Positions 5,445-28,276 of a stretch of 28,712 nucleotides of DNA are shown here, piece by piece. The DNA is from a virus. How positions within the stretch are numbered: position 1 is the first letter of the stretch; the number at the start of each line of letters is the position of its first letter. The stretch covers positions 1 to 28,712 of the IMG/VR virus record IMGVR_UViG_3300042519_000575. One strand, given 5' to 3'. The translations under genes were made by a program, and so were the position numbers. The notes beneath the pieces are model-generated. The model saw only the letters and a program-made list of their open reading frames with translations. It was not told the DNA's origin and did no database searches.

Positions 5445-8400
5445 ATGGCAAGTTTAACTCGCTCCCAATTAAAATCATCATCTAATACTACCTATACAAC
5501 TAATGGTGTAGGTGATATAGATGCATCAGAGGTAAGAACATTTAATGATAATTTGATTGAATCATTAATTACAAATGATTTAACATCATCTATGAATGTA
5601 TTAACTTCGGTTAGTGCATCATATGCTACAATAGCAGGTGGTGTAGTTGGAGGTATTCCATCATTAGCATCACTAAATGATTTTACATCATCACAGAATA
5701 CTAAGAATTCAACATTAGCATCATATACTGCAAGTAATGATAGTACAAATACTTCTCAAAATAGTAGATTAACTAATTTAGAATCTACATCAGCAAGTGT
5801 AAATACATCAATTGCAAATCTAAATACATTTAGTGCTAGTAATGGTAATGCATCTTTAAATTTATTTACATCTTCAGCTAATGGTAGATTAAATTCATTA
5901 GAATCACAAACTTCATCTTATGCTAATTCAGCATCTGTTGCAGTAGTAGATGCATCACAACAATCACAGATAAATGCTTTGATTGCAGCTACTAGTTCTT
6001 ATGCAACAAGTTCAGTTTCATTAACTTCTTTAAATGATTTTACTGCATCACAAGATACAAAGAATAGTACATTAGCAACTTATACAGGTTCTAACGATAC
6101 TAAATGGAATACATTAGGTGGACAAACTGGAAGTTATGTAACTTCAGCTATTACTGCAAGTTCATTAGTAACTGCATCTGTAAATCTTAACACAATTACA
6201 TTTACTAAAGGGGATACATCAACATTCAACATTACAGTTAATACAGGTAGTGGAACAACAACAGATTTAACTTCTTTGAATTCATTTACTGCATCACAAG
6301 ATACAAAGAACTTATCAGTAGGATATAGTACATCTTCATTGAATAGTTTTACTTCAAGTAATGCTAATACATCACTTAACTCTTATACTGCATCACAAGA
6401 TACAAAGAATAGTACATTAGCATCTGTAACATCATCTCTAAATAGTGCAACTGCATCTTTATTTACATCTGCAAGTTTAGGATTAACAACTGCTTCATTT
6501 AGTGGTAATACTATTACTTTCAAAAAAGGAGATGGTACAACATTTGGTTTAGTAATACCTGATATTAGTGCGAGTGCAGGAACTATATCATCTTCTGCAC
6601 AAATAGTTGAATTAGGATTTTTACAAACGAGTTCATTCAATTCTTATACATCATCTACAAATGGTAGATTAACAAATATAGAATCAACGACTGCAAGTTT
6701 ATTAATTGAAACACAAAACTTAGAATTGTTTAGTGCATCTGCATTATCTTCAATATCTCAGTTAAATGTATCATCTGCATCTCAACAAATTAGTATAGAT
6801 TCATTAAATACAAATAGTGGTAGTGTAAATAGTTCTATAACTCAGTTGAATGCAAGTTCTGCTTCTCAGCAAGTAAGTATCAATGCATTAAACGGAGCAA
6901 CTGCATCTTATGCAACTTCAGCAATTACTGCAAGTTCATTAGTAACTGCTTCGTTTAGTGGAAATACTTTAACCTTTACAAAAGGTAACGGAACTACCTT
7001 TGGTTTAGTAATACCCGATGTTAGTGGTTCTACAATAGATACAGGTAGTTTTGTAACAACTGCATCATTTAACGCATATACTACTTCACAAGATACAAAG
7101 AATAGTACATTAGCAACTTATACAGGAAGTAATGATACTAAATGGAGTACAATATCAAGTGTAACAAGTTCATTAATAGCATATACAGGAAGTAATAATA
7201 CTAAATGGAGTAACTTAGGTTCTCAATCAGGTAGTTTTATTACCGAAGCAGAAACAGGTTCATTTGTAAAATTAGATGTTGCTAATACATTTACACAACC
7301 ACAAAGAATAAATTATTCTGATGGAACTGGTTCTTTATTTACAACAGATAGAATACAAACTGAATTACCATCAACTAAAGAATATGGATATAGATTAAAA
7401 AATCAATTTGGTACTTCTGTAGTAGAAATGGGTCAAAGTGTTGGTGATGACTCCTCTGGATTTATTATTGTAACTAGTCAAAATAGTGGAGTAACTGCAA
7501 CTATAGGTAAAAATGGATTCGTAGGTAGAGTAGATACTACTCAATTTACTGCAAGTTTAGCTGAAGGATATGTATTTGTTGGTGATGGAAGTGGAAAAAC
7601 ATCATTAGTAGCAACATCATCATTTGGAGGAGCAACACCCGCAGGAACAGTTAGTTCATCTGCACAAATAACTTCATTAGGTTTTGTTAGTTCTTCGGTA
7701 ACTGCATCATCTTTAATAACTGCATCTGTAAATTTAAATACAATTACTTTTACTAAAGGAGATTCATCTACATTTGCTATAACTGTTAATACAGGTAGTG
7801 CAGGAACAACTATACCAGCAGGAACAATATCTGGCTCACAACAAATAACCGATTTAGGTTTTGTTTCATCATCTATAACGGCTAGTTCATTAGTAACTGC
7901 TTCGTTTAGTGGAAACACTTTAACATTTACAAAAGGAGATGCATCTACATTTGGTGTAGTAATACCTGATGTTAGTGGTAGTGCAGCAACTACAATATAT
8001 GATACAGTATATACAGGTGAGAGTATAACAAAAGGTGACCCATTATACATTAGTGGTTCGCAAGGTGCTAACCCAATAGTATTCAAAGCAGATGCGGCAG
8101 ACCCTAATAAGATGCCAGTAACATATGTATCAAACGAAACTATTGGTGCAGCAAATACAACTGAAGCAATTATATTAGGTCATATAGAAGGAATAGATTT
8201 AACTGGATATGTAGCAGGACAAACAATATATGTAGCAGAAGGTGGAGGATGGTCACTTAACTTACCATCAGGAAGTACTTCAATTACTCAATTATTAGGA
8301 GTAATAACCAAAGGTGGTAGTGGTGGAAAAGGATTAGTATTAAATCCAGGTCCTGCACAGTTACCAGGTTTAGATACAGGTAAGTTTTGGGTAGGTAATG

Positions 8401-10466
8401 GTAGTAATCAACCAACTGAAATAAGTAGTGCATCATTTGCAACTACTGGCTCTAACGTATTTACGGGAGAACAAACGTTAAGTGATGAGGCAGGAAATAC
8501 TGTAACATTAAGTGATATATCAGGCTCATTAGTATTAGTAGCAAAGGGTGCAACATCTGGCTCTGAAGGATTATCAAATATATCTGCATCTGCATCTACA
8601 CAAACCAATTTAATTCTTAAAACTAATAATAACCAAAGTGGTTCTTTAACTATATCAGGTAGTGGTAATATATTATTATCAGCTACTGCACCAACTGCGG
8701 GATTTAGAAGATATGTAGGTAATCAAAATATAGCTTTGACTACTGCGTTACCTCAAATGACAGGTTCGATAACTTATTCACCAAGTGTTAATTTTAACTA
8801 TTTTAATCTACCACTTACTTTTAGAGGACCTGCTTCATCTTCTACTTGGAACTTTAATAACAATATTACAAACGGAAACTTTAACATTGGTAATTCAGAT
8901 GCAACACCTGCAAATCAAGCAGTAGCAGGTGGTACAATGAGTAATAATATGTTATTAGCATCAGTTAATTACAATGCATATACTACACCATTAGTAACAA
9001 GTGCAACATTCCAAAATAGTTTAGTAGTAGGTGTTGTAACATTAACTGCATTTAGTTCATCTATACAAGCTAATAATAATATCTTTAATGGTAATTCATT
9101 TGCAGTAAATAACTCATACTTTGGTACGGCATCAACAAATGCAGCACAAAGATTAGCATTATCATATAATGTGTTTGGTGGTATTAACTCATCTGCATTA
9201 ACTGTAAGTGGTAGTAATACAACTACATCATTTAACAGAGAAGTAATTGGTAATACAACAAATGGTAGTGGTATTGCATTAGGTTCGGTCCTTAATGGAG
9301 ATAATTCAAGTTTATTATCAACATTAGTACATGGTTCTAACTTAACAGTAACTGGCTCAACTTTATATAATACATACACACAAGCAGGTTCTGCTTTCAT
9401 AGGTAGAAACAACTCTGTAAATGGAACTGCTGCAAGAAGTGGTGAAACAGTATTTGCAGTAGGAACGGGAACATCAACATCAAATAGAAAGACAGGTTTC
9501 TTAATTGATTCAGGCTCTAATACATTCATAGAAGGAACTCTAAACGTAAGTGGTTCAACATCATTTAACGGAGCAGTAAATATAACAGGCTCATTAACAT
9601 CATCTTTAACAGAAGGATATGTATGGGTAGGTGGGGCAGGTAATGTTTCTACATTAGTTGCAACATCATCGTTTGGTGGTGGTAGTGTGCCAACAGGTAC
9701 GGTTAGTTCATCAGCACAGATTACTGCATTTGGATTTATTAGTTCTTCAACTATACCAGAAGGAACAGTTTCATCATCAGCACAGATAGTAGCATATAAT
9801 AAGTTTGCAACTACGGGTTCAAATACATTTACTGATTATCAAATCATTAAATCTAATTTGACATTCCAAGAACCAATTGCAGGAGAAGGAAGTGATAATT
9901 CAATTAGAATGAATTCACTAAACCAATCTACTTTATATATTCAGAATACATCTGTATCATCTGGCTACGCATCTGGCTCAATTCTACAATTAACAACTGC
10001 AACCGGTTCTAATGGATATGGATTTAGTGGTTCTGCTACATTCCAAATGGATGCAGTTTATGGTGGTAAAACTGCAAAAATGCAAGTTTCAAATATAAAT
10101 GGTGTAGGAACTGCCGTATATGGATTTGCAGATAGAGTAGAGTTTGCAAAAGCAGCAGGTTTCCCTAATACACCAGCTGATACATTTAGAGTAGATGCAA
10201 CTGCAATTGAATTGAGTGGTTCTATAAAAGTAAATACAGGAAGTTCAGGCTCAGCAGGTATTGTATCAGTTGGAAGTGGAGGAACTACTGTAAATAATGG
10301 TTTAGTAACATCTAATTCTATTATATTAGCAACTACACAAGAATTAGGTTCAGGAGATGAATATCCTGCAGTTGTATCAGGTAAAACAAATGGTTCATTT
10401 ACACTAAACCATAACTTTGGTGGTAGTTTAAATGTAGCATACCTAATCATAAACCCACTATTTTAA
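5445..10466 (+). CDS. Giant repetitive tail fibre / receptor-binding protein
   Basis: At 1,673 aa this is the largest gene here. Residues 1-850 are very rich in Ser, Thr, Asn and Ala with heptad-like stretches (SLNSYTASQDTKNSTLA). They carry at least five copies of a roughly 35-residue beta unit of form 'ITASSLVTAS..NTITFTKGD.STF', near residues 236, 349, 492, 751 and 811. Residues about 848-1000 (YTGESITKGDPLYISG to QLLGVITKGG) look like a compact beta domain found inserted in phage fibres. 'GTVSSSAQI' recurs five times. The C-terminus (SFTLNHNFGGSLNVAYLIINPLF) may be the trimer tip. I saw no S74 chaperone. It probably forms a long trimeric fibre that contacts the host surface. Confidence 0.75.
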   Translation: MASLTRSQLKSSSNTTYTTNGVGDIDASEVRTFNDNLIESLITNDLTSSMNVLTSVSASYATIAGGVVGGIPSLASLNDFTSSQNTKNSTLASYTASNDSTNTSQNSRLTNLESTSASVNTSIANLNTFSASNGNASLNLFTSSANGRLNSLESQTSSYANSASVAVVDASQQSQINALIAATSSYATSSVSLTSLNDFTASQDTKNSTLATYTGSNDTKWNTLGGQTGSYVTSAITASSLVTASVNLNTITFTKGDTSTFNITVNTGSGTTTDLTSLNSFTASQDTKNLSVGYSTSSLNSFTSSNANTSLNSYTASQDTKNSTLASVTSSLNSATASLFTSASLGLTTASFSGNTITFKKGDGTTFGLVIPDISASAGTISSSAQIVELGFLQTSSFNSYTSSTNGRLTNIESTTASLLIETQNLELFSASALSSISQLNVSSASQQISIDSLNTNSGSVNSSITQLNASSASQQVSINALNGATASYATSAITASSLVTASFSGNTLTFTKGNGTTFGLVIPDVSGSTIDTGSFVTTASFNAYTTSQDTKNSTLATYTGSNDTKWSTISSVTSSLIAYTGSNNTKWSNLGSQSGSFITEAETGSFVKLDVANTFTQPQRINYSDGTGSLFTTDRIQTELPSTKEYGYRLKNQFGTSVVEMGQSVGDDSSGFIIVTSQNSGVTATIGKNGFVGRVDTTQFTASLAEGYVFVGDGSGKTSLVATSSFGGATPAGTVSSSAQITSLGFVSSSVTASSLITASVNLNTITFTKGDSSTFAITVNTGSAGTTIPAGTISGSQQITDLGFVSSSITASSLVTASFSGNTLTFTKGDASTFGVVIPDVSGSAATTIYDTVYTGESITKGDPLYISGSQGANPIVFKADAADPNKMPVTYVSNETIGAANTTEAIILGHIEGIDLTGYVAGQTIYVAEGGGWSLNLPSGSTSITQLLGVITKGGSGGKGLVLNPGPAQLPGLDTGKFWVGNGSNQPTEISSASFATTGSNVFTGEQTLSDEAGNTVTLSDISGSLVLVAKGATSGSEGLSNISASASTQTNLILKTNNNQSGSLTISGSGNILLSATAPTAGFRRYVGNQNIALTTALPQMTGSITYSPSVNFNYFNLPLTFRGPASSSTWNFNNNITNGNFNIGNSDATPANQAVAGGTMSNNMLLASVNYNAYTTPLVTSATFQNSLVVGVVTLTAFSSSIQANNNIFNGNSFAVNNSYFGTASTNAAQRLALSYNVFGGINSSALTVSGSNTTTSFNREVIGNTTNGSGIALGSVLNGDNSSLLSTLVHGSNLTVTGSTLYNTYTQAGSAFIGRNNSVNGTAARSGETVFAVGTGTSTSNRKTGFLIDSGSNTFIEGTLNVSGSTSFNGAVNITGSLTSSLTEGYVWVGGAGNVSTLVATSSFGGGSVPTGTVSSSAQITAFGFISSSTIPEGTVSSSAQIVAYNKFATTGSNTFTDYQIIKSNLTFQEPIAGEGSDNSIRMNSLNQSTLYIQNTSVSSGYASGSILQLTTATGSNGYGFSGSATFQMDAVYGGKTAKMQVSNINGVGTAVYGFADRVEFAKAAGFPNTPADTFRVDATAIELSGSIKVNTGSSGSAGIVSVGSGGTTVNNGLVTSNSIILATTQELGSGDEYPAVVSGKTNGSFTLNHNFGGSLNVAYLIINPLF
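5660..8000 (+). repeat. Intragenic repeats in the fibre gene
   Basis: Near-identical DNA words recur within the fibre gene, for example GATACAAAGAATAGTACATT near 6055, 6399 and 7093, and GCAAGTTCATTAGTAACTGC near 6155 and 6929. They encode the repeated fibre segments and could act as substrates for recombination that lengthens or shortens the shaft. The boundaries given are approximate. Confidence 0.7.
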
Positions 10467-10467
10467 T

Positions 10468-10620
10468 ATGATTAAAAATATAATAGATACTCTAGCATCA
10501 AATGATTGGTATAGTATAAGCGAAAGAGTTGAAATAGCAAAAGGAAAACACTCATACCCAAAGAGTTTAAAAGAAGCATTCAATAAAATTAAAAGAGTTG
10601 CGAAATGGCAAGAGAAATAA
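10468..10620 (+). CDS. Small protein overlapping the tape measure start
   Basis: A 50-aa basic protein (MIKNIIDTLASNDWYSISER, then a Lys-rich helix ending KRVAKWQEK). It begins 1 nt after the fibre stop (TTTTAATATG) and its last 16 nt overlap the start of the tape measure gene in another frame, so its translation probably couples to that gene. No family is recognised. The tight packing argues that it is real. A small tail-assembly or tape-measure helper is possible but unproven. Confidence 0.6.
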   Translation: MIKNIIDTLASNDWYSISERVEIAKGKHSYPKSLKEAFNKIKRVAKWQEK

Positions 10621-13400
10621 AGTTTAAAGTAGATGTAGATACTGAAGCATCAGTTGCTGAACTTCGTAAATTAAAAAAGGAAATCAGAGATGTAGCAGCA
10701 GGTTCTGAAGAGTTCAAAAAGCTACAACAAAATATTGATGATATTCAAGATTCTTTGGTTGCTTCAAGAGCATCTGCAGGTAACTTTTTTGATATATTAG
10801 GTCAATTACCAGGTCCGATAGGAACTATTGGTAGTGCAGTAGGAAGTACTGTAACTGCTTTAAAACAATTCACTTTAATAAAGTTTAGTGATTTAGCGGG
10901 TTCTGTTGTTGAGTTAGGTAAAGACTTCTTAGATATTGGTAGAAACATACTAAATCTAACTGGAATAACTAAGGTATATACAGTAGTTAATGAAACACTT
11001 ACTGCAGCAATGACTGCATTAGGTATAGCACAAACTACTGCTGCAGCAGCAAGTAGAGTATTAGCAGCAGCATTAACTGCAACAGGTATTGGAGCAATCG
11101 TAGTTGCAGTTGGTTATGCAGTAAATGCATTTAATGACTTAACTAAATCATTAGAAGAAAACGCAAAAGTAAATAAAGAATTAGCAGGTGTTCAATCTCA
11201 GGAATCAGTAGCATTAACTGAACAATTAAAATTAGCTACAGATGTAACTGTAAATAGAAATCTTCAAATAAAATCTATTGAAGATTTAAAGAAAGCATAT
11301 CCTGGATTTAATGCATTCATAGATAAAGAAAATAACCTAACAAAGCAAGGTGTTGAATTTATCAAATTGAAAATAAAACAATATGAGTTAGAAGCACAAG
11401 CTAAACTTATTGTTGGTAAGATTGCTGAAAACAATATTAAAGTACAACAAATCGAAAACTCTTCTTTATTAGAGCAAGTGGGTATGTGGGAAAAGGTATG
11501 GGCAACTATCAAATCAGGTGGTAATACATCTATATTAGTTAATGAGTTAGTTGCTAAAGGAGTTTCAAATACAAAAGATGAAGTAAAGAAAATAGGTGAA
11601 GAGAATGATAAGTGGAGAAAATCATTAACTACTGTATATGAACAAACAAATCAAGTAGTAGGTGCATTAAAACCATTAGAAGCAACTCTTAAAACTACTG
11701 CTGATGCAGAAGAAGCTGCTAAAAAAGTAACTGCTTCTAAAGGTGATACATTAAAATCTGTTAGAAAAGAAATAGAAGATTATATTGCTTCTGTTAAGAA
11801 ATTAAATACATCGGTAGAGTTTAATCAATTATCAGCAGGTGAAAAGGAATTAGAAGCAGCTGATAAAGTATATAAAGATTTATTAGCTAAAGCCAAAAAG
11901 TATAATATTGATTTGAATTCTTTGCAAACTAAAAGTAAAGAGCAATTATTAGTTATAGCTAAAGAATCTTTTATTGATACAAAATCTTTAGAAGGTAAAA
12001 ATAAAGAAGAATTATTAGCTATAGCTAAACAATCTAATGTTGATTTAAAATCTTTAGAAGGTAAAAATAAAGAAGAATTATTAGGTATAGTTAAGCAATC
12101 TGCTATTAATATAAACTCTTTAACGGAGGCATACCAAACACAAAGAAAAGCAATAAATGCAAAGTATGAATCTGATTTACTTAAATCAATTAGTGAGTAT
12201 GTTAAAACAAATGAAGATTTAAGAAAAGATGCTAGGGATAAAGAATTAAATGATTCTAAAATTGCCTATGATTTATTAATAAAAGAAGCTGAAAGATTAG
12301 GAGTAAAAACAAATACTATTACAGAATCATACAATGCTAGAGTTGTAGAAATCAACAAAAAGTATGATGATGAAATTATAAAGAATAAGAAAGAATTTAC
12401 CGATAAGGTAAATGAGATAAATGTTGCGGCAATAGCAAATGAAATTGAAAGAGCAAGAAAGGAAAGAGAAATCAAATTCCAAAATGATTTAGCATCATTA
12501 GAAGCTGATAAAAACTTTATTAAATTATCAGAAGATGAAAAGAGTAAATTAAGAGTATTACTTGCAAATGCATATAATAATGATATTCTTAAAATAAATG
12601 AAGATGCAAGACAAAAGGATAATGCAGATTTATTAAAAAAATACGATGATGAGTTAAGATTATTAGAACTAAGAGGTCAGAGTTTATTAGCAGGAACTAA
12701 AGCATACTATGAGAATAGAGCTCAGATACTTTACGAAGAAGAACAGAAAGAACTTGCAGCATTAGATATAACTGAGAAAGAGAAAACTGCAATTAAAGAA
12801 AAGTATTCTAAGTTAAGACAACAGTTAGATGAAGATGAGTTAGCAGCAACTGGTAAAGTAATTTCTCAAACCATAGATGCAATAGCAAGTGTAGGTAATG
12901 CAATTGCAAGTTCATACGATGAAGAAGCAAAAACATCTGAGGAAGCATTTGAAAAGAGAAAGAAATTACAAAAGGCAACTGCTTTATTATCTGCTGCAAG
13001 TGGTTTAGTTCAAATTTTAACACAACCATCTGTATTACCATCTCCATTCGATTGGATTGTTAAAGGTATAAACGCAGTAGCATTGGGTATTGCAACGGCA
13101 GTTAATATTAAAAAGATAGATGCAGTTAAATTTGATGGTGGTGGTTCAGCTGCTTCGGCAGGTAGTACAGGTGTTAGTGGTGGAGCAGCATCAGCAGCAA
13201 CACCGAATATACCAACACCACAGATAGCACAAGCAATTGCACCACAAGTACAAACAGGAATGGCACAGAATCCTGCAACACAGATAACGAGAACATTAGC
13301 ACAAACAACTCAAAAACCAGTAGAGGCATTTGTAGTATCTACATCCGTTAGTTCTCAACAACAATTGGATAGAAGAACAAACAGAGCTGCTACTTTATAA
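10605..13400 (+). CDS. Tail tape measure protein
   Basis: This 931-aa protein has the typical tape measure plan: a helical N-terminus (residues 1-60, Lys/Glu-rich), a small hydrophobic section at about 131-176 (TAAMTALG, AAALTATGIGAIVVAVG), long coiled-coil stretches from about 180 to 780, a second hydrophobic section near 790-840, and a low-complexity Ala/Gly/Gln/Pro tail. It sets tail length and may help DNA cross the envelope. At roughly 0.15 nm per residue, a rule of thumb for siphophages, the tail would be near 140 nm. Three 22-residue tandem repeats lie at about residues 438-503. The start overlaps the preceding small ORF. Confidence 0.85.
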   Translation: MAREIKFKVDVDTEASVAELRKLKKEIRDVAAGSEEFKKLQQNIDDIQDSLVASRASAGNFFDILGQLPGPIGTIGSAVGSTVTALKQFTLIKFSDLAGSVVELGKDFLDIGRNILNLTGITKVYTVVNETLTAAMTALGIAQTTAAAASRVLAAALTATGIGAIVVAVGYAVNAFNDLTKSLEENAKVNKELAGVQSQESVALTEQLKLATDVTVNRNLQIKSIEDLKKAYPGFNAFIDKENNLTKQGVEFIKLKIKQYELEAQAKLIVGKIAENNIKVQQIENSSLLEQVGMWEKVWATIKSGGNTSILVNELVAKGVSNTKDEVKKIGEENDKWRKSLTTVYEQTNQVVGALKPLEATLKTTADAEEAAKKVTASKGDTLKSVRKEIEDYIASVKKLNTSVEFNQLSAGEKELEAADKVYKDLLAKAKKYNIDLNSLQTKSKEQLLVIAKESFIDTKSLEGKNKEELLAIAKQSNVDLKSLEGKNKEELLGIVKQSAININSLTEAYQTQRKAINAKYESDLLKSISEYVKTNEDLRKDARDKELNDSKIAYDLLIKEAERLGVKTNTITESYNARVVEINKKYDDEIIKNKKEFTDKVNEINVAAIANEIERARKEREIKFQNDLASLEADKNFIKLSEDEKSKLRVLLANAYNNDILKINEDARQKDNADLLKKYDDELRLLELRGQSLLAGTKAYYENRAQILYEEEQKELAALDITEKEKTAIKEKYSKLRQQLDEDELAATGKVISQTIDAIASVGNAIASSYDEEAKTSEEAFEKRKKLQKATALLSAASGLVQILTQPSVLPSPFDWIVKGINAVALGIATAVNIKKIDAVKFDGGGSAASAGSTGVSGGAASAATPNIPTPQIAQAIAPQVQTGMAQNPATQITRTLAQTTQKPVEAFVVSTSVSSQQQLDRRTNRAATL
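11916..12113 (+). repeat. Three in-frame 66-nt tandem repeats in the tape measure gene
   Basis: Units start at 11916, 11982 and 12048. The second and third are nearly identical (AAATCTTTAGAAGGTAAAAA, then AAAGAAGAATTATTAG), and the first is diverged but in register. Each encodes 22 residues of the type SLEGKNKEELLAIAKQS. Duplications of this kind would lengthen the tail in fixed steps. Confidence 0.85.
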
Positions 13401-13429: not shown

Positions 13430-14779
13430 ATGAAGACATTTGAACTTATAATTGATAATCCTGAAACCGATGAAGTGGTAGCATTATCATTAGTTGAATT
13501 TCCAGCAATCGAAGCTGATTGGGTTTATTTCAACAAAGAAGAAATTAAATTTGCTACGGTTGATACTGAAAAGAAGATTATCATAGCACCTGTATTAATA
13601 CCTGAAAAGAGAATTTTAAGATTATCAGGAGATGGAGAGCAATATCAAGTTTATCTATCAGCAGATACGATTGAAAAGTTAGCACAGAACTACATAAACA
13701 AAGGATACCAACAAAATGCTACATTAGAACATAATGATAGAATAGATGGAGATATAAGTGTAGTGGAAAGTTGGGTTTCAAAGAGTAGAGAGAAAGATAA
13801 ATCAACTCTTTACTTTGATAGAAGTTTTCCTGCTGGAACATGGTTCGTATCTATGAAAGTAAATTCAGATGATTTGTGGAATGATTATGTAAAAACAGGT
13901 AAAATTAAAGCAATAAGCATCGAAGGTTTCTTTGAACATAAGTTAGTACAAGCATCAAAACAATTACCTATATCATTTAAAAATGTAGATGAGTTTAATG
14001 AAGAAGAAGCTGAAATGTTTCTATCTAAAATTAAACAATTGTTTGAATCATATGCTGATTACGGAGATGATATAAAGAACAATGCTAAAAGAGGTATTGA
14101 GTTAAATGAGAAGAACAACAATAAGTGTGCAACCCAAACAGGAAAAGTTAGAGCACAGCAATTGGCAAATGGTGAAGCTATATCAGTAGATGTAATACAA
14201 AGAATGTATTCCTATTTGAGTAGAGCTGAAACTTATTACGATAATGCTAATTCTGAAAACGATTGTGGTCACATTAGTTTTTTGCTATGGGGTGGAAAAT
14301 CAGCACTAAGTTGGAGTAGAAATAAATTAGAAGAATTAGGATTAGTAGAAGCAGAAACTGCAGTATCTATATCATCTACATATGCAGGTGGTACACCATC
14401 AGGTAGTGTTAAGATGATTGAAGATTGTCCAATAGAAACACAAGATATTTCAGTAAATCTTGCAAACAGACAAAACGCAATAGATAAAGCTGATTACGGA
14501 CCTGAAAATCCAAACGAACCTAATGAAGATTATTGGATTGCAAAAGCAAAACAATTCAAAGGAGATGTATCTGCTGCTAAAACTGCTTTATGTGGTAACT
14601 GTGCATTCTTTGACCAAAAACAAAAAACATTAGATTGTATAGCACAAGGTATAGGTGGGGAAGATGCATATGATGCAATAGAAGCAGGAGATTTAGGTTT
14701 ATGTTTGGCATTTGATTTTAAATGTGCATCAAAAAGAACCTGTTCGGCATGGGTTGCAGGTGGTCCTCTAACTGATTAA
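13430..14779 (+). CDS. XkdF-type prohead protease with two extra C-terminal domains
   Basis: A 449-aa fusion. Residues 1-175 match the XkdF-like serine protease family (Peptidase_S78_2) that matures the capsid: LVEFPAIEADWVYFN (21-35), APVLIPEKRILRL, ATLEHNDRIDG with His101, VVESW, and AISIEGFFE with Ser163 as the likely nucleophile. Residues about 233-303 (GKVRAQQLANGEAISVDVIQ through CGHISFLLWGGKSALSW) form an alpha-helical module often fused to phage head proteins. The last 65 residues carry Cys at 388, 391, 403, 425, 432 and 438, ending AWVAGGPLTD, and may bind a metal or iron-sulfur cluster. It lies after the tape measure, far from the capsid gene, which is unusual. Confidence 0.75.
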   Translation: MKTFELIIDNPETDEVVALSLVEFPAIEADWVYFNKEEIKFATVDTEKKIIIAPVLIPEKRILRLSGDGEQYQVYLSADTIEKLAQNYINKGYQQNATLEHNDRIDGDISVVESWVSKSREKDKSTLYFDRSFPAGTWFVSMKVNSDDLWNDYVKTGKIKAISIEGFFEHKLVQASKQLPISFKNVDEFNEEEAEMFLSKIKQLFESYADYGDDIKNNAKRGIELNEKNNNKCATQTGKVRAQQLANGEAISVDVIQRMYSYLSRAETYYDNANSENDCGHISFLLWGGKSALSWSRNKLEELGLVEAETAVSISSTYAGGTPSGSVKMIEDCPIETQDISVNLANRQNAIDKADYGPENPNEPNEDYWIAKAKQFKGDVSAAKTALCGNCAFFDQKQKTLDCIAQGIGGEDAYDAIEAGDLGLCLAFDFKCASKRTCSAWVAGGPLTD

Positions 14780-19528: not shown

Positions 19529-19557
19529 ATTAAATTAAAAAAAAACTTTAGAAAACA

Positions 19558-25009: not shown

Positions 25010-25315
25010 ATGGCAAAAGGATTTCAAAAAGGAGTAAGTGGTAATCCTAAAGGGAGAGCTAAAGGTGTCCCTAATAAAACTACTGCTGAAATAAAAGAGA
25101 TTATCACACGCATCGTAGGTAATCAATTAGATAGATTGGAAAAGGATTTGGACTTAATAAGAAAAGATAATCCAGAAGAAGCAATAAGGATAGCAACTAA
25201 ACTTATTGATTATGTTATACCTAAGCAAACTAAATTAGATGTTGATGGTAGGTTAGAGCATAGTGTAAATAAATTAGTTATAGAGATAAAGAAAGCAAAT
25301 GGGAAGGACGATTAA
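25010..25315 (+). CDS. terS: Terminase small subunit-like protein (DUF5681)
   Basis: This 101-aa protein begins MAKGFQKGVSGNPKGRAKGV, the 'fqkGqSGNPkGRpkG' signature of the DUF5681 domain, which is common directly upstream of phage large terminase genes. A helical region follows (TAEIKEIITRIVGNQLDRLE, EEAIRIATKLIDYVIPK). By family and position it is the DNA-recognition subunit of the packaging motor, although it is shorter than typical small terminases and the domain's function is not firmly established. It overlaps the large subunit start by 17 nt. Confidence 0.7.
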   Translation: MAKGFQKGVSGNPKGRAKGVPNKTTAEIKEIITRIVGNQLDRLEKDLDLIRKDNPEEAIRIATKLIDYVIPKQTKLDVDGRLEHSVNKLVIEIKKANGKDD

Positions 25316-26456
25316 CATACAGACTACTATTACATTTGAAAACATAATGAATAGTAAAAGTAGAGTTGTTCATAATATAGGTGGCACAAGAAGCTCCAAG
25401 TCATACTCAGCACTTCAGTATTGTATTGTTAAAGCAATGGAATCTTCACACAATATTACAATCGTTAGAAAGACAATACCATCTTTGAAGCGAACGGTTA
25501 TGAAAGATTTAAAAGATATACTAACTCATTTAGAACTTTGGCATGATAATGATTTTAATATTACTGATAGAATATGGACATACAATAACTCGTCTATACA
25601 ATTCATTTCTACGGATGATGCAGAAAAACTTAGAGGTGTTAAGTCTGATATACTTTATATTGATGAAGCATCTGAGATTGATGAAGAAGCTTATTTCCAA
25701 TTGGCTATTAGAACAAGTGGAAAAATTATTCTAACATACAATCCAACTATATCACCTGTCCATTGGTTAAGGAAGATGGAAGATTGTGATAGGTACATAA
25801 CTACATATAAAGACAATCCTTTCTTACCTGCTGATATGGTAAAGGCAATTGAAGAGTTAGAATTTAAATCACCTAAGAAGTGGATTATATATGGTAAAGG
25901 AGAATACGCACCCAATGATGCTTCCATATTTGAATTTGATTTAACAGATAAATTAGAAGGAGAACTAATCGGATATGGGATGGACTTTGGATATTCACAA
26001 GACCCTACATCTTTGGTTGCTCTATATAAGCAAGGAGATACTCTGACAATCCAAGAACTCTTATATGAGAGAGGTTTAGTAACAAATGATATAATCACTA
26101 AGCTCAGAGGATTTGGAATCAACAGAGAGGAGATATGGTGTGATTCTGCAGAACCAAGATTAATAGACGAAATATATAGAGGAGGGTTCAATGCAAAGCC
26201 TGTAAAGAAAGGAGCTGATTCAATTAACTTTGGAATATCAGTATTACAAAATTACAAATTGTTAGTCCATTCAAAATCACAAAACTTAATTAATGAAATG
26301 TATTCTTACCAATGGGCAACTGATAAGTATGGATACCAATTGGATAAACCAGATGGTGGTTTAGACCATGCTATAGATGCAGCAAGATATTGCGCAATGA
26401 TGAAATTAACAAAACAAAATCAAAACAAAGGAGTATATGCCATATCTGTCAGATGA
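25299..26456 (+). CDS. terL: Terminase large subunit (PBSX-type, Terminase_3/6)
   Basis: A 385-aa packaging ATPase and nuclease. The Walker A variant GGTRSSKS (28-35) and Walker B DILYIDEAS (117-125) form the ATPase, with TYNP (146-149) as a coupling motif. The C-terminal RNase H-like nuclease has candidate acidic residues Asp229 (GYGMDFGYSQDPTSL), Asp282 (WCDSAEPRLIDE) and Asp356/360 (LDHAIDAARY). Length and motifs fit the PBSX-like group. It cuts concatemers and pumps DNA into the prohead through the portal, which I do not find in this window. The following small gene overlaps it by 20 nt. Confidence 0.93.
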   Translation: MGRTINIQTTITFENIMNSKSRVVHNIGGTRSSKSYSALQYCIVKAMESSHNITIVRKTIPSLKRTVMKDLKDILTHLELWHDNDFNITDRIWTYNNSSIQFISTDDAEKLRGVKSDILYIDEASEIDEEAYFQLAIRTSGKIILTYNPTISPVHWLRKMEDCDRYITTYKDNPFLPADMVKAIEELEFKSPKKWIIYGKGEYAPNDASIFEFDLTDKLEGELIGYGMDFGYSQDPTSLVALYKQGDTLTIQELLYERGLVTNDIITKLRGFGINREEIWCDSAEPRLIDEIYRGGFNAKPVKKGADSINFGISVLQNYKLLVHSKSQNLINEMYSYQWATDKYGYQLDKPDGGLDHAIDAARYCAMMKLTKQNQNKGVYAISVR

Positions 26457-26631
26457 TGAAGTAAAAGAAATAGATGAATATGTAAATTCATTAGAAGGTA
26501 ATGTAGAATACTACAGAGAGTTGTGTGCCATACTACAAACACAAAGAGATATGGCAGAATCAAAGCTAAAGATGCTAAGAGCAGAATTAATGGATAATAA
26601 AAGAACTGAACCAATAACAATAAAAATATGA
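26437..26631 (+). CDS. Small coiled-coil protein after terminase
   Basis: A 64-aa acidic helical protein (MPYLSDDEVKEIDEYVNSLE, then YYRELCAILQTQRDMAESKL, KMLRAELMD). Heptad spacing of Leu, Ile, Met and Tyr suggests a coiled coil. It overlaps the terminase stop by 20 nt and the next start by 4 nt, so it is translationally coupled on both sides. A packaging-complex helper is possible but unproven. Confidence 0.6.
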   Translation: MPYLSDDEVKEIDEYVNSLEGNVEYYRELCAILQTQRDMAESKLKMLRAELMDNKRTEPITIKI

Positions 26632-27305
26632 GTGAGCAGATAGTAAGTGTAACCATACCACAAAGTTGGTCTGAGATAACATTAGAAAAATATCTAAAGT
26701 ATAGAAAGAACTTAGATATGTTTAAAGATGATGAAGATTATAATGAGCAAACTCTTTTGATTGCTTTAGATATTCTATGTGGAGTAGATATAAAGTACAT
26801 TACTCAAATAGGATTGGATAATTTAAAATTGATTCAAGAAGACTTATCATCTTTTATGGGTAAAACAGATTTTGAATTACAAAGGTTAATAACAGTAAAT
26901 GGTGTAGAGTATGGGTTCGAACCTAACTTATCTAATATTGCATATGGTGCTTATTTAGATATAAGTAAGCATGATACTATTGCAATAGATAATAACTGGC
27001 AAAAGATAATGGCAGTATTATATCGTAAGGTAAAGAGTAAGAGTGGTAAGTATTATGATATAGAACCATATACAGGTAACGAAGATTATGAGTGGGTTAA
27101 GAACACAACAATGGATATCAATTATGGGTGCCTGTTTTTTTTTATCAATTTATCAAAAGACTTAGTACTCTCTACCCTGAAATCTTTGAAGAAGGAGGAA
27201 TGGGAAACCCATCAATTATTGAAATCAATCATGGGAAAAAATGGAGAGGGTATGCTTCAATTGTTGAACTCGCAAATGGAGACATCACAAAGTTTAATGA
27301 GATAG
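26628..27305 (+). CDS. Chaperone-like protein, upstream frame of a possible -1 frameshift pair
   Basis: A 225-aa, mostly helical acidic protein (VTIPQSWSEITLEKYLKYRK, then QTLLIALDILCGVDIKYI). The 'iPqsWdeitl..y..l' opening and helical body resemble proteins paired with a short downstream frame in Bacteroidota phages. Near its 3' end a run of nine T (27135-27143, reading GCLFFFINLS) offers a T TTT TTT slippery heptamer. A -1 shift there would replace the last ~55 residues with the frame that continues to 27406. This is the architecture of lambda-type tail assembly chaperones (G/GT), although here the pair lies next to the head genes, not the tape measure. Confidence 0.65.
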   Translation: MSEQIVSVTIPQSWSEITLEKYLKYRKNLDMFKDDEDYNEQTLLIALDILCGVDIKYITQIGLDNLKLIQEDLSSFMGKTDFELQRLITVNGVEYGFEPNLSNIAYGAYLDISKHDTIAIDNNWQKIMAVLYRKVKSKSGKYYDIEPYTGNEDYEWVKNTTMDINYGCLFFFINLSKDLVLSTLKSLKKEEWETHQLLKSIMGKNGEGMLQLLNSQMETSQSLMR

Positions 27306-27406
27306 CAGATGAACCGTTAGAAAAGTGTTTATTGTACCTATCATATAAATCAGATACGAGAGTTGTTCAAGACCAAGTTCACAGATTGGCAATGAAAGGA
27401 ATGTAA
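27128..27406 (+). CDS. Downstream (-1) frame of the chaperone-like pair
   Basis: A 92-aa frame, -1 relative to the preceding gene and overlapping it by 178 nt. It can start only at GTG 27128, or at ATG 27200 (68 aa, preceded by GGAGG), unless it is reached by frameshift at the T9 run. Its C-terminal part (KKWRGYASIVELANGDITKF, EKCLLYLSYKSDTRVVQDQV) looks like a real conserved small phage protein, more so than the overlapped tail of the upstream frame. Either a separate small gene or the frameshifted extension fits. A homopolymer error in the sequence would also create this picture. Confidence 0.6.
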   Translation: MPVFFYQFIKRLSTLYPEIFEEGGMGNPSIIEINHGKKWRGYASIVELANGDITKFNEIADEPLEKCLLYLSYKSDTRVVQDQVHRLAMKGM

Positions 27407-27441: not shown

Positions 27442-27627
27442 ATGAGACGGAGTAAAGAATACGGAATCTATATTGGAGAAACACAGGGATTGGCGACGCC
27501 AGGTCCTGGTAGTAGAAGAGGTTGTTTGTGTAAAGGAGCTAAAAAGTATAGTAGAGAGTGTTGTGATGGTAGATTGTGGGGACAAGGAATAGGTAAAACT
27601 CAATCTCCATATCCTACAAACGAATAA
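27442..27627 (+). CDS. Small Cys-rich protein
   Basis: A 61-aa basic protein with the pattern GCLCKGAKKYSRECCDGRLW followed by GQGIG. The 'ClC....YS.eCCdG....QGIG' motif recurs in small proteins from Bacteroidota phages, just upstream of the scaffold and capsid genes. The function is unknown. Four Cys in a tight cluster could bind zinc or form disulfides. The start is 6 nt after an AATTGTTAAA motif (27427-27436) shared with several structural genes. Confidence 0.65.
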   Translation: MRRSKEYGIYIGETQGLATPGPGSRRGCLCKGAKKYSRECCDGRLWGQGIGKTQSPYPTNE

Positions 27628-27679: not shown

Positions 27680-28276
27680 ATGAAACCACAAACAGTACTT
27701 AATAAGATTATGACTCTTCTTTCAATTCAAGAAGAAGTTAAACTTGCTTATGGCCAATTGGCTGATGGAACTATTTTAGAATCTTCAACATTCGATGTTG
27801 GTGAAGCAATTGATATTGTTTCAGAAGATGGAAGTAAATCACCTGCACCTAACGGAGAGCATGAGATTGCATTAAAAGATGAATCAGGTAATGAGGTTAT
27901 CATTAGAGTAATCGTAGCAGATGGTAAGATTACTGAAAGAATGAATGTAGAAGAATCAGCACCAGAAGCACCTGAAGAATCACAAGAATCAATTGAACAA
28001 CAAATGTCTGAAGAAGTTGTTCCTGTTGAAACTATTGCAGAACCTTCACAAGATGAGAGAGATGCTAAGATTGCATCATTGGAAACAAAGATTACAGAGT
28101 TAGAAGCTCTTATCAATGAATTCAAAGCTTACAAAGATATGCAGATGGAAGATGTTGATGTTCCACAATTAGATGGAGCTCCTATTGAAGAAGCTAAATT
28201 CTCAATCGGACATCAATTCAAATCTCAAAAACCACAGAGTACAATAGATAGAGTTTTCGCTAACCTATCGAAATAA
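27680..28276 (+). CDS. Capsid scaffold-like protein
   Basis: The 198-aa, strongly acidic protein sits directly upstream of the major capsid gene, where scaffold proteins are encoded. Residues 1-90 are a compact beta-rich part (GQLADGTILESSTFDVGEAI, then GNEVIIRVIVADGKITER). Residues 91-130 are Glu/Pro/Ser-rich and disordered-looking. Residues 131-160 are a coiled coil (RDAKIASLETKITELEALIN). A basic C-terminus (SIGHQFKSQKPQSTIDRVFA) could bind the capsid protein. These are scaffold-like properties. It may be a target of the XkdF-type protease, but no cleavage site can be named. Confidence 0.65.
   Translation: MKPQTVLNKIMTLLSIQEEVKLAYGQLADGTILESSTFDVGEAIDIVSEDGSKSPAPNGEHEIALKDESGNEVIIRVIVADGKITERMNVEESAPEAPEESQESIEQQMSEEVVPVETIAEPSQDERDAKIASLETKITELEALINEFKAYKDMQMEDVDVPQLDGAPIEEAKFSIGHQFKSQKPQSTIDRVFANLSK

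Follow-up and report, generated by a model that had tools for sequence, protein, structure and literature searches.

A conserved run of nine to eleven T at a frame junction in a phage gene next to that of the terminase large subunit: probable two-product gene and candidate RNA polymerase slippage

Introduction

What does an uninterrupted run of nine T do inside a phage gene, at the very point where one reading frame hands over to another? We study this question in a window of 28,712 nucleotides (the whole stretch of DNA analysed, IMG/VR virus record IMGVR_UViG_3300042519_000575), where a sequence-only reading had pointed to nine T followed by a protein-like −1 frame and had likened the arrangement to the frameshifting of tail assembly chaperones G and G-T, in an unusual place. 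We combine a survey of relatives with tests of what selection preserves, predicted folds and gene neighbourhoods.

The explanation toward which comparative sequence tips us, by a small measure, is as follows. One gene would encode two proteins with a common N-terminal domain of ~170 aa. Faithful decoding would give a 225-aa product, and a slip within the T run, adding one U to the mRNA and thereby equal to a −1 shift, would give a 259-aa product carrying a conserved, helical extension of 87 aa. RNA polymerase, rather than the ribosome, would be the machine that slips, and the pair would act as a tail assembly chaperone system, with the tape measure protein bearing many copies of the short form and few of the long, and would in the window phage have moved to a place beside the gene of the terminase large subunit (TerL). 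The parts of this explanation differ in strength: one gene very probably makes two proteins, and comparison among relatives establishes how the two frames are related, that the run has at least nine T, and that both products are under selection.

Results

The slip site and its two frames

The junction is made up of the following features.

27135–27143, + strand: T9 slip site, read in the 0 frame as CTG TTT TTT TTT ATC
26628–27305, + strand: 0-frame ORF of 225 aa, shared N-terminal domain plus 0-frame tail, matching phrog_32199 (E 4e-14)
27143–27406, + strand: −1 frame extension of 87 codons (27143–27403) and a stop, beginning YQFIKRL
27144–27305, + strand: stretch read in both frames, where the 0-frame tail covers the beginning of the −1 extension

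The nine T and the 87 codons that follow in the −1 frame are thus as first described. Up to the run, the 0-frame ORF encodes an N-terminal domain of ~169 aa and, beyond it, a tail of 53 aa; phrog_32199, the family it matches, is one of unknown function. The −1 ORF spans 27128–27406 and is open already upstream of the T9; joining the N domain to the −1 extension gives the 259 aa of the longer product.

This T9 is the sole run of eight or more T within the window. With a GC content of 31%, for which a first-order Markov model predicts 0.61 T9 per window, a T9 by itself is not rare in DNA so AT-rich; what takes it beyond chance, judging from its relatives, is conservation. The window also holds a single A run of nine (19537–19545), between the listed ORFs (19473 and 19643).

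The −1 relation is constant among relatives

Loci were drawn from five IMG/VR scans and from profile searches of the DNA fetched, the large scans contributing their best 80 matches each and one scan being aimed at the divergent group of the cultured Nonlabens phage P12024L (~28% identity). Among the matches listed, both domains are present in 268 loci, 187 of them with distinct 129-base contexts; these are a sample and not a census. In every one of the 268 the extension lies in the −1 frame, at identities down to ~28% and with P12024L included, and the run is T9 in 197, T10 in 57 and T11 in 14. Nowhere among these 268 listed loci do we find a T run shorter than nine with a −1 relation, an in-frame or +1 relation of the two domains, or a reversion to a single frame. 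The P12024L-directed scan had the same outcome (−1 extension, T run). The comparison of homologues named as a check in the sequence-only reading goes its way, and homologues that encode the two parts as separate, non-overlapping genes were not seen. The −1 extension is 40–70% identical to that of the window among 56 relatives, mostly of the group of loci that we call A (the other being B), and ~29% identical to that of P12024L. A prophage scan of 84,980 genomes gave one short match of 34 residues; this match to the N domain (50% identity), on contig L119, labelled Rhizobiales, may be chance or a phage fragment.

Could the two frames instead be two separate genes that merely overlap, or the product of a homopolymer sequencing error? 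We regard this as very improbable. The −1 ORF does contain a GTG at 27128, and in P12024L the pair is annotated as two genes, both of which would suit separate genes. Against this stand the constancy of the −1 relation at run lengths of 9, 10 and 11 in independent assemblies, the fact that the conserved part of the extension begins at the run, and distant single-ORF relatives that are collinear over the junction. Random indel errors should produce in-frame and +1 cases, of which there are zero; since independent assemblies with 9, 10 or 11 T are all −1, the sequences exclude a sequencing error. Near-identical contigs from other samples (L002–L006) likewise have T9.

Selection appears to hold the length of the run

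Across loci the T run begins at codon position 1, 2 or 3, and the flanking codons vary widely. A tree of 79 N-terminal domains requires at least 12 changes in the codon phase of the run, and a length of at least nine is retained every time. The two T's beyond the T TTT TTT heptamer lie 5' in one class, one on each side in another and 3' in the third. Although TTC supplies between about a quarter and a third of the Phe codons in the rest of these genes, in the listed loci it never breaks the run to fewer than nine. Because the total is at least nine in every phase, selection appears to act on homopolymer length and not on the heptamer.

Long A/T runs are also avoided in other coding sequence. 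In other ORFs of at least 150 aa, we see none of nine or more where 12 are expected from synonymous recoding of 258 kb of ORFs; counting all sequence (490 kb), there is one further T9, together with five A9. Pseudoknot-free folding of a diverse set of 74 sequences against dinucleotide shuffles gives a z of ~0 around the site, with mean z from −0.14 to 0.27 for 60-nt windows placed 0 to 75 bases downstream. A seemingly lower folding energy at +15 to +45 was set aside, as the shuffles attribute it to GC content. Stimulatory structure is not always needed at bacterial −1 frameshift sites.

What, then, would slip? Programmed −1 frameshifting by the ribosome at T TTT TTT would yield the same two products, and we consider it the less likely alternative, but a real one. 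The heptamer, an X XXY YYZ motif, sits in phase within every run of nine or more, and ribosomal frameshifting is the classical mode for phage G/GT (PMC5009743). On the other hand, the run is never 7 or 8 T long, though silent changes in several phases would spare the heptamer; downstream structure, in the pseudoknot-free folding, is no greater than in shuffles; and the other large ORFs are purged of long A/T runs. Bacterial transcription is slip-prone at runs of 9 A or T (Atkins et al., PMC5009743; also PMC1088944), and the junction carries an uninterrupted run of at least nine T in 268 of 268 listed loci. Baranov et al. used run avoidance as an argument for transcriptional slippage (PMC1088944). 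Because length is kept across phases, long runs are avoided and RNA structure was not found, these sequences lead us to favour RNA polymerase moderately over the ribosome, and both kinds of slippage may act. Of the slippery heptamer in the sequence-only reading, the −1 change at the T run is conserved, but the conserved feature is a run of at least nine that drifts in phase, free of accompanying structure.

Both products look selected

In the double-read stretch silent differences amount to 0.328, compared with 0.454 in the N-terminal part and 0.455 in the part read in the −1 frame only. The 0-frame tail stays open for a mean of 49.9 codons in group A (minimum 38 among 60) against 8.9 simulated, and for 57.8 codons in group B against 13.7. 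The simulation recodes the −1 protein using codon frequencies from the genes themselves and takes codons as independent, which overstates the precision, yet the gap is large; the third frame, as a control, matches the simulation. With the −1 extension conserved and the 0-frame tail kept open, both products look selected by these measures. That both frames are protein-like holds up; the overlapped tail, however, is more than a mere readthrough end, as its ~50 codons are apparently kept open by selection.

These data also bear on whether slippage merely rescues a frame-disrupted gene, the 225-aa product being waste. Distant relatives have the N and C parts in one ORF, making the joined protein the probable ancestral unit, as such a rescue would have it. 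A tail open for ~50 codons where ~9 are expected, the reduced silent change in the overlap and the return to a single frame in 0 of 268 listed loci all argue the other way, and we find rescue improbable.

Distant relatives carry the joined product as one ORF

The two domains were modelled apart. The AlphaFold model of residues 1–172 (the N domain) has a pLDDT of 89 and a pTM of 0.83; the predicted extension reaches a pLDDT of 77 and a pTM of 0.52, hence its fold is uncertain. By fold, the N-domain model hits a protein of Nonlabens phage P12024S with E 4e-12 and, at a low TM-score, gp10 of Flavobacterium phage 6H with E 1e-4; a protein annotated as a tail assembly chaperone comes up weakly (E 0.015). 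There is also a weak match to phrog_166, 'tail protein' (E 0.006). The PDB, searched by sequence and by fold, gave nothing usable. Pfam and NCBIfam scans gave no matches, and neither they nor sequence searches tied the protein to any verified chaperone.

In Duneviridae, Helgolandviridae and a Microcystis phage, each relative of 6H gp10 occupies a single ORF, 259–301 aa long. Aligned by hhalign against a set of these (Leef1_2, Ingeline1_5, laban gp017 and the Microcystis phage protein), the joined family scores 98.3% over 245 columns, spanning the junction; the single-ORF relatives score between 8 and 87% when aligned one by one, and a control of eight window proteins unrelated to the family reaches at most 1.8%. 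Because the single-ORF relatives align along the whole length, across the junction, the joined product is on this comparison an evolutionary unit, of which the T-run clade would have made a two-product gene. The same relatives indicate that parts of the wider family do without a two-product system. Three of the four single-ORF relatives checked have a T6 at the equivalent place, suggesting that the F-F motif is partly a protein constraint, which counts against the slippage explanation.

We had considered 6H gp10 as a second frameshift case and rejected it, the near-identical gene of FPSV-F7 being one ORF. The 6H gene (L121:10352-10927) looks disrupted, by error or by a real break, and the FPSV-F7 gene is intact, with one ORF of 293 aa.

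Gene neighbourhood and function

The genes that matter for function are these.

25299–26456, + strand: TerL (phrog_2, E 3e-38), upstream neighbour of the slip gene
26437–26631, + strand: 64-aa ORF that follows TerL and runs into the start of the slip gene; a family search gave no match
27442–27627, + strand: 61-aa Gly/Cys-rich ORF, downstream neighbour, translation GCLCKGAKKYSRECCDGRLWGQGIGK
27680–28276: 198-aa ORF, 'scaffold' in the sequence-only reading, directly before the probable major capsid gene
28306: probable major capsid gene (phrog_11320)
10605–13400, + strand: probable tape measure protein of 931 aa, away from the slip gene

Among the matches listed, the upstream neighbour is TerL in 133 of the 151 group A loci whose flank is long enough and in 20 of the 53 group B loci with flank. 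In 197 loci of group A, a relative of the 61-aa ORF lies ~100 bases 3' of the slip gene. In group B, phrog_30964, neck (tail-completion) and tail genes follow the slip gene directly. As for the single-ORF relatives, Ingeline1_5 lies between adaptor and tape measure genes, and TerL is just upstream in Leef and the Microcystis phage.

The tape measure candidate is assigned by sequence character only, namely a charged N-terminal coiled coil and a hydrophobic middle; a phrog search gave just one weak, unrelated match. ORF 5445–10466 was rejected for this role, its Ser/Thr-rich repeats resembling a fibre: it encodes a protein of 1673 aa, rich in Ser, Thr and Asn and carrying numerous similar repeats, that is likely a fibre, and it is flanked by a 213-aa ORF and by the probable tape measure gene. 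Beyond the tape measure candidate, 13430–14779 encodes a 449-aa protein with an N-terminal XkdF-type serine protease domain (PF14550), a relative of P12024L gp01. Candidates for a second chaperone directly 5' of the P12024L tape measure gene (gp48/gp49) and 5' of the window's fibre gene were dropped, no slip run being seen in the sequence of either.

We consider a tail-assembly-chaperone-like role, as for G/GT, the most likely, with moderate confidence; this judgement comes from relatives in tail modules, the tape measure gene and the two-C-termini design of G/GT. Since it has a probable tape measure gene, the window phage should be long-tailed and need tail assembly helpers. A shared N-terminus with a late frame change is present in the sequences of all 268 listed loci, but the gene does not lie between the major tail protein and tape measure genes in the window. 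With that position lacking, and with sequence, Pfam and NCBIfam searches giving no tie to a verified chaperone, we do not file the slip gene as a member of the G/GT family.

The main rival holds that the two products act with TerL, in packaging or head-tail joining. The frequent TerL upstream in groups A and B, and again in Leef and the Microcystis phage, is what one would expect of such a partnership. Other relatives, however, lie in tail or neck modules distant from TerL, the two-C-termini design is that of G/GT, and no TerL-like or portal-like fold match was found for the slip-gene product. We think a TerL- or neck-linked role the less likely of the two, but a genuine contender. The chaperone-like role fits the earlier suggestion of G/GT-like logic in an unusual place beside TerL, which the similar design supports.

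Discussion

Taken at its widest, our tentative proposal, which we hold at slightly under even confidence, is that RNA polymerase slippage, at a T run that selection keeps at 9–11, determines in what ratio two assembly proteins are made across a large clade of Bacteroidota-type phages. If true, it would offer another route than the ribosomal frameshift, which is thought near-universal among the tail assembly genes of phages: were the run to act at transcription, the same two-product outcome as in lambda G/GT would be reached with a different machine. In the open-access literature (most subscription journals lying outside this scope) we found no prior description of the T-run slip gene. Annotation misses both gene and extension, as in P12024L with its two hypothetical proteins, and would drop the window's −1 frame. 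With hundreds of natural variants that cover three codon phases and three run lengths, slippage in transcription can be tested directly against slippage in translation in a cultured phage.

How does the slip gene compare with known systems? Like lambda-type G and G-T, it has an N-terminal domain common to both products, a minor product with a −1 extension, distant conservation and relatives in tail modules. It differs in that, in the window, it stands apart from the tape measure gene, uses a T run of at least nine free of RNA structure instead of an XXXYYYZ heptamer, and has a 0-frame product that continues ~50 codons beyond the site, in a tail that appears selected.

Among its own relatives, gp40-gp41 of the Nonlabens phages P12024L and P12024S (phrog_32199) come from cultured phages, with the gene beside TerL, and are annotated as two hypothetical proteins; P12024L has, like the window, a T9 and a −1 extension, but the run is in another codon phase and tail genes follow directly. 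In Duneviridae and Helgolandviridae, the N+C proteins of phrog_25418 (laban gp017, Ingeline1_5, Leef1_2) are distant homologues collinear with the joined product; unlike the slip gene, each is an unannotated single ORF with T6 or other codons and no frame change.

With the cases of transcriptional slippage in mxiE, spa13, tssM1 and IS elements, the slip gene shares a coding A/T run of 9–11 at which one extra base joins two frames, as well as the keeping of both products and the avoidance of runs elsewhere (PMC1088944, PMC4256274, PMC5009743). The closest experimental precedent is Citrobacter tssM1, where RNA polymerase slips on an A11 with an efficiency of 20–25% and both product lengths are needed (PMC4256274). 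Unlike mxiE, spa13 and tssM1, the slip gene is a phage gene with a probable assembly function, found across hundreds of phages and known from sequence alone.
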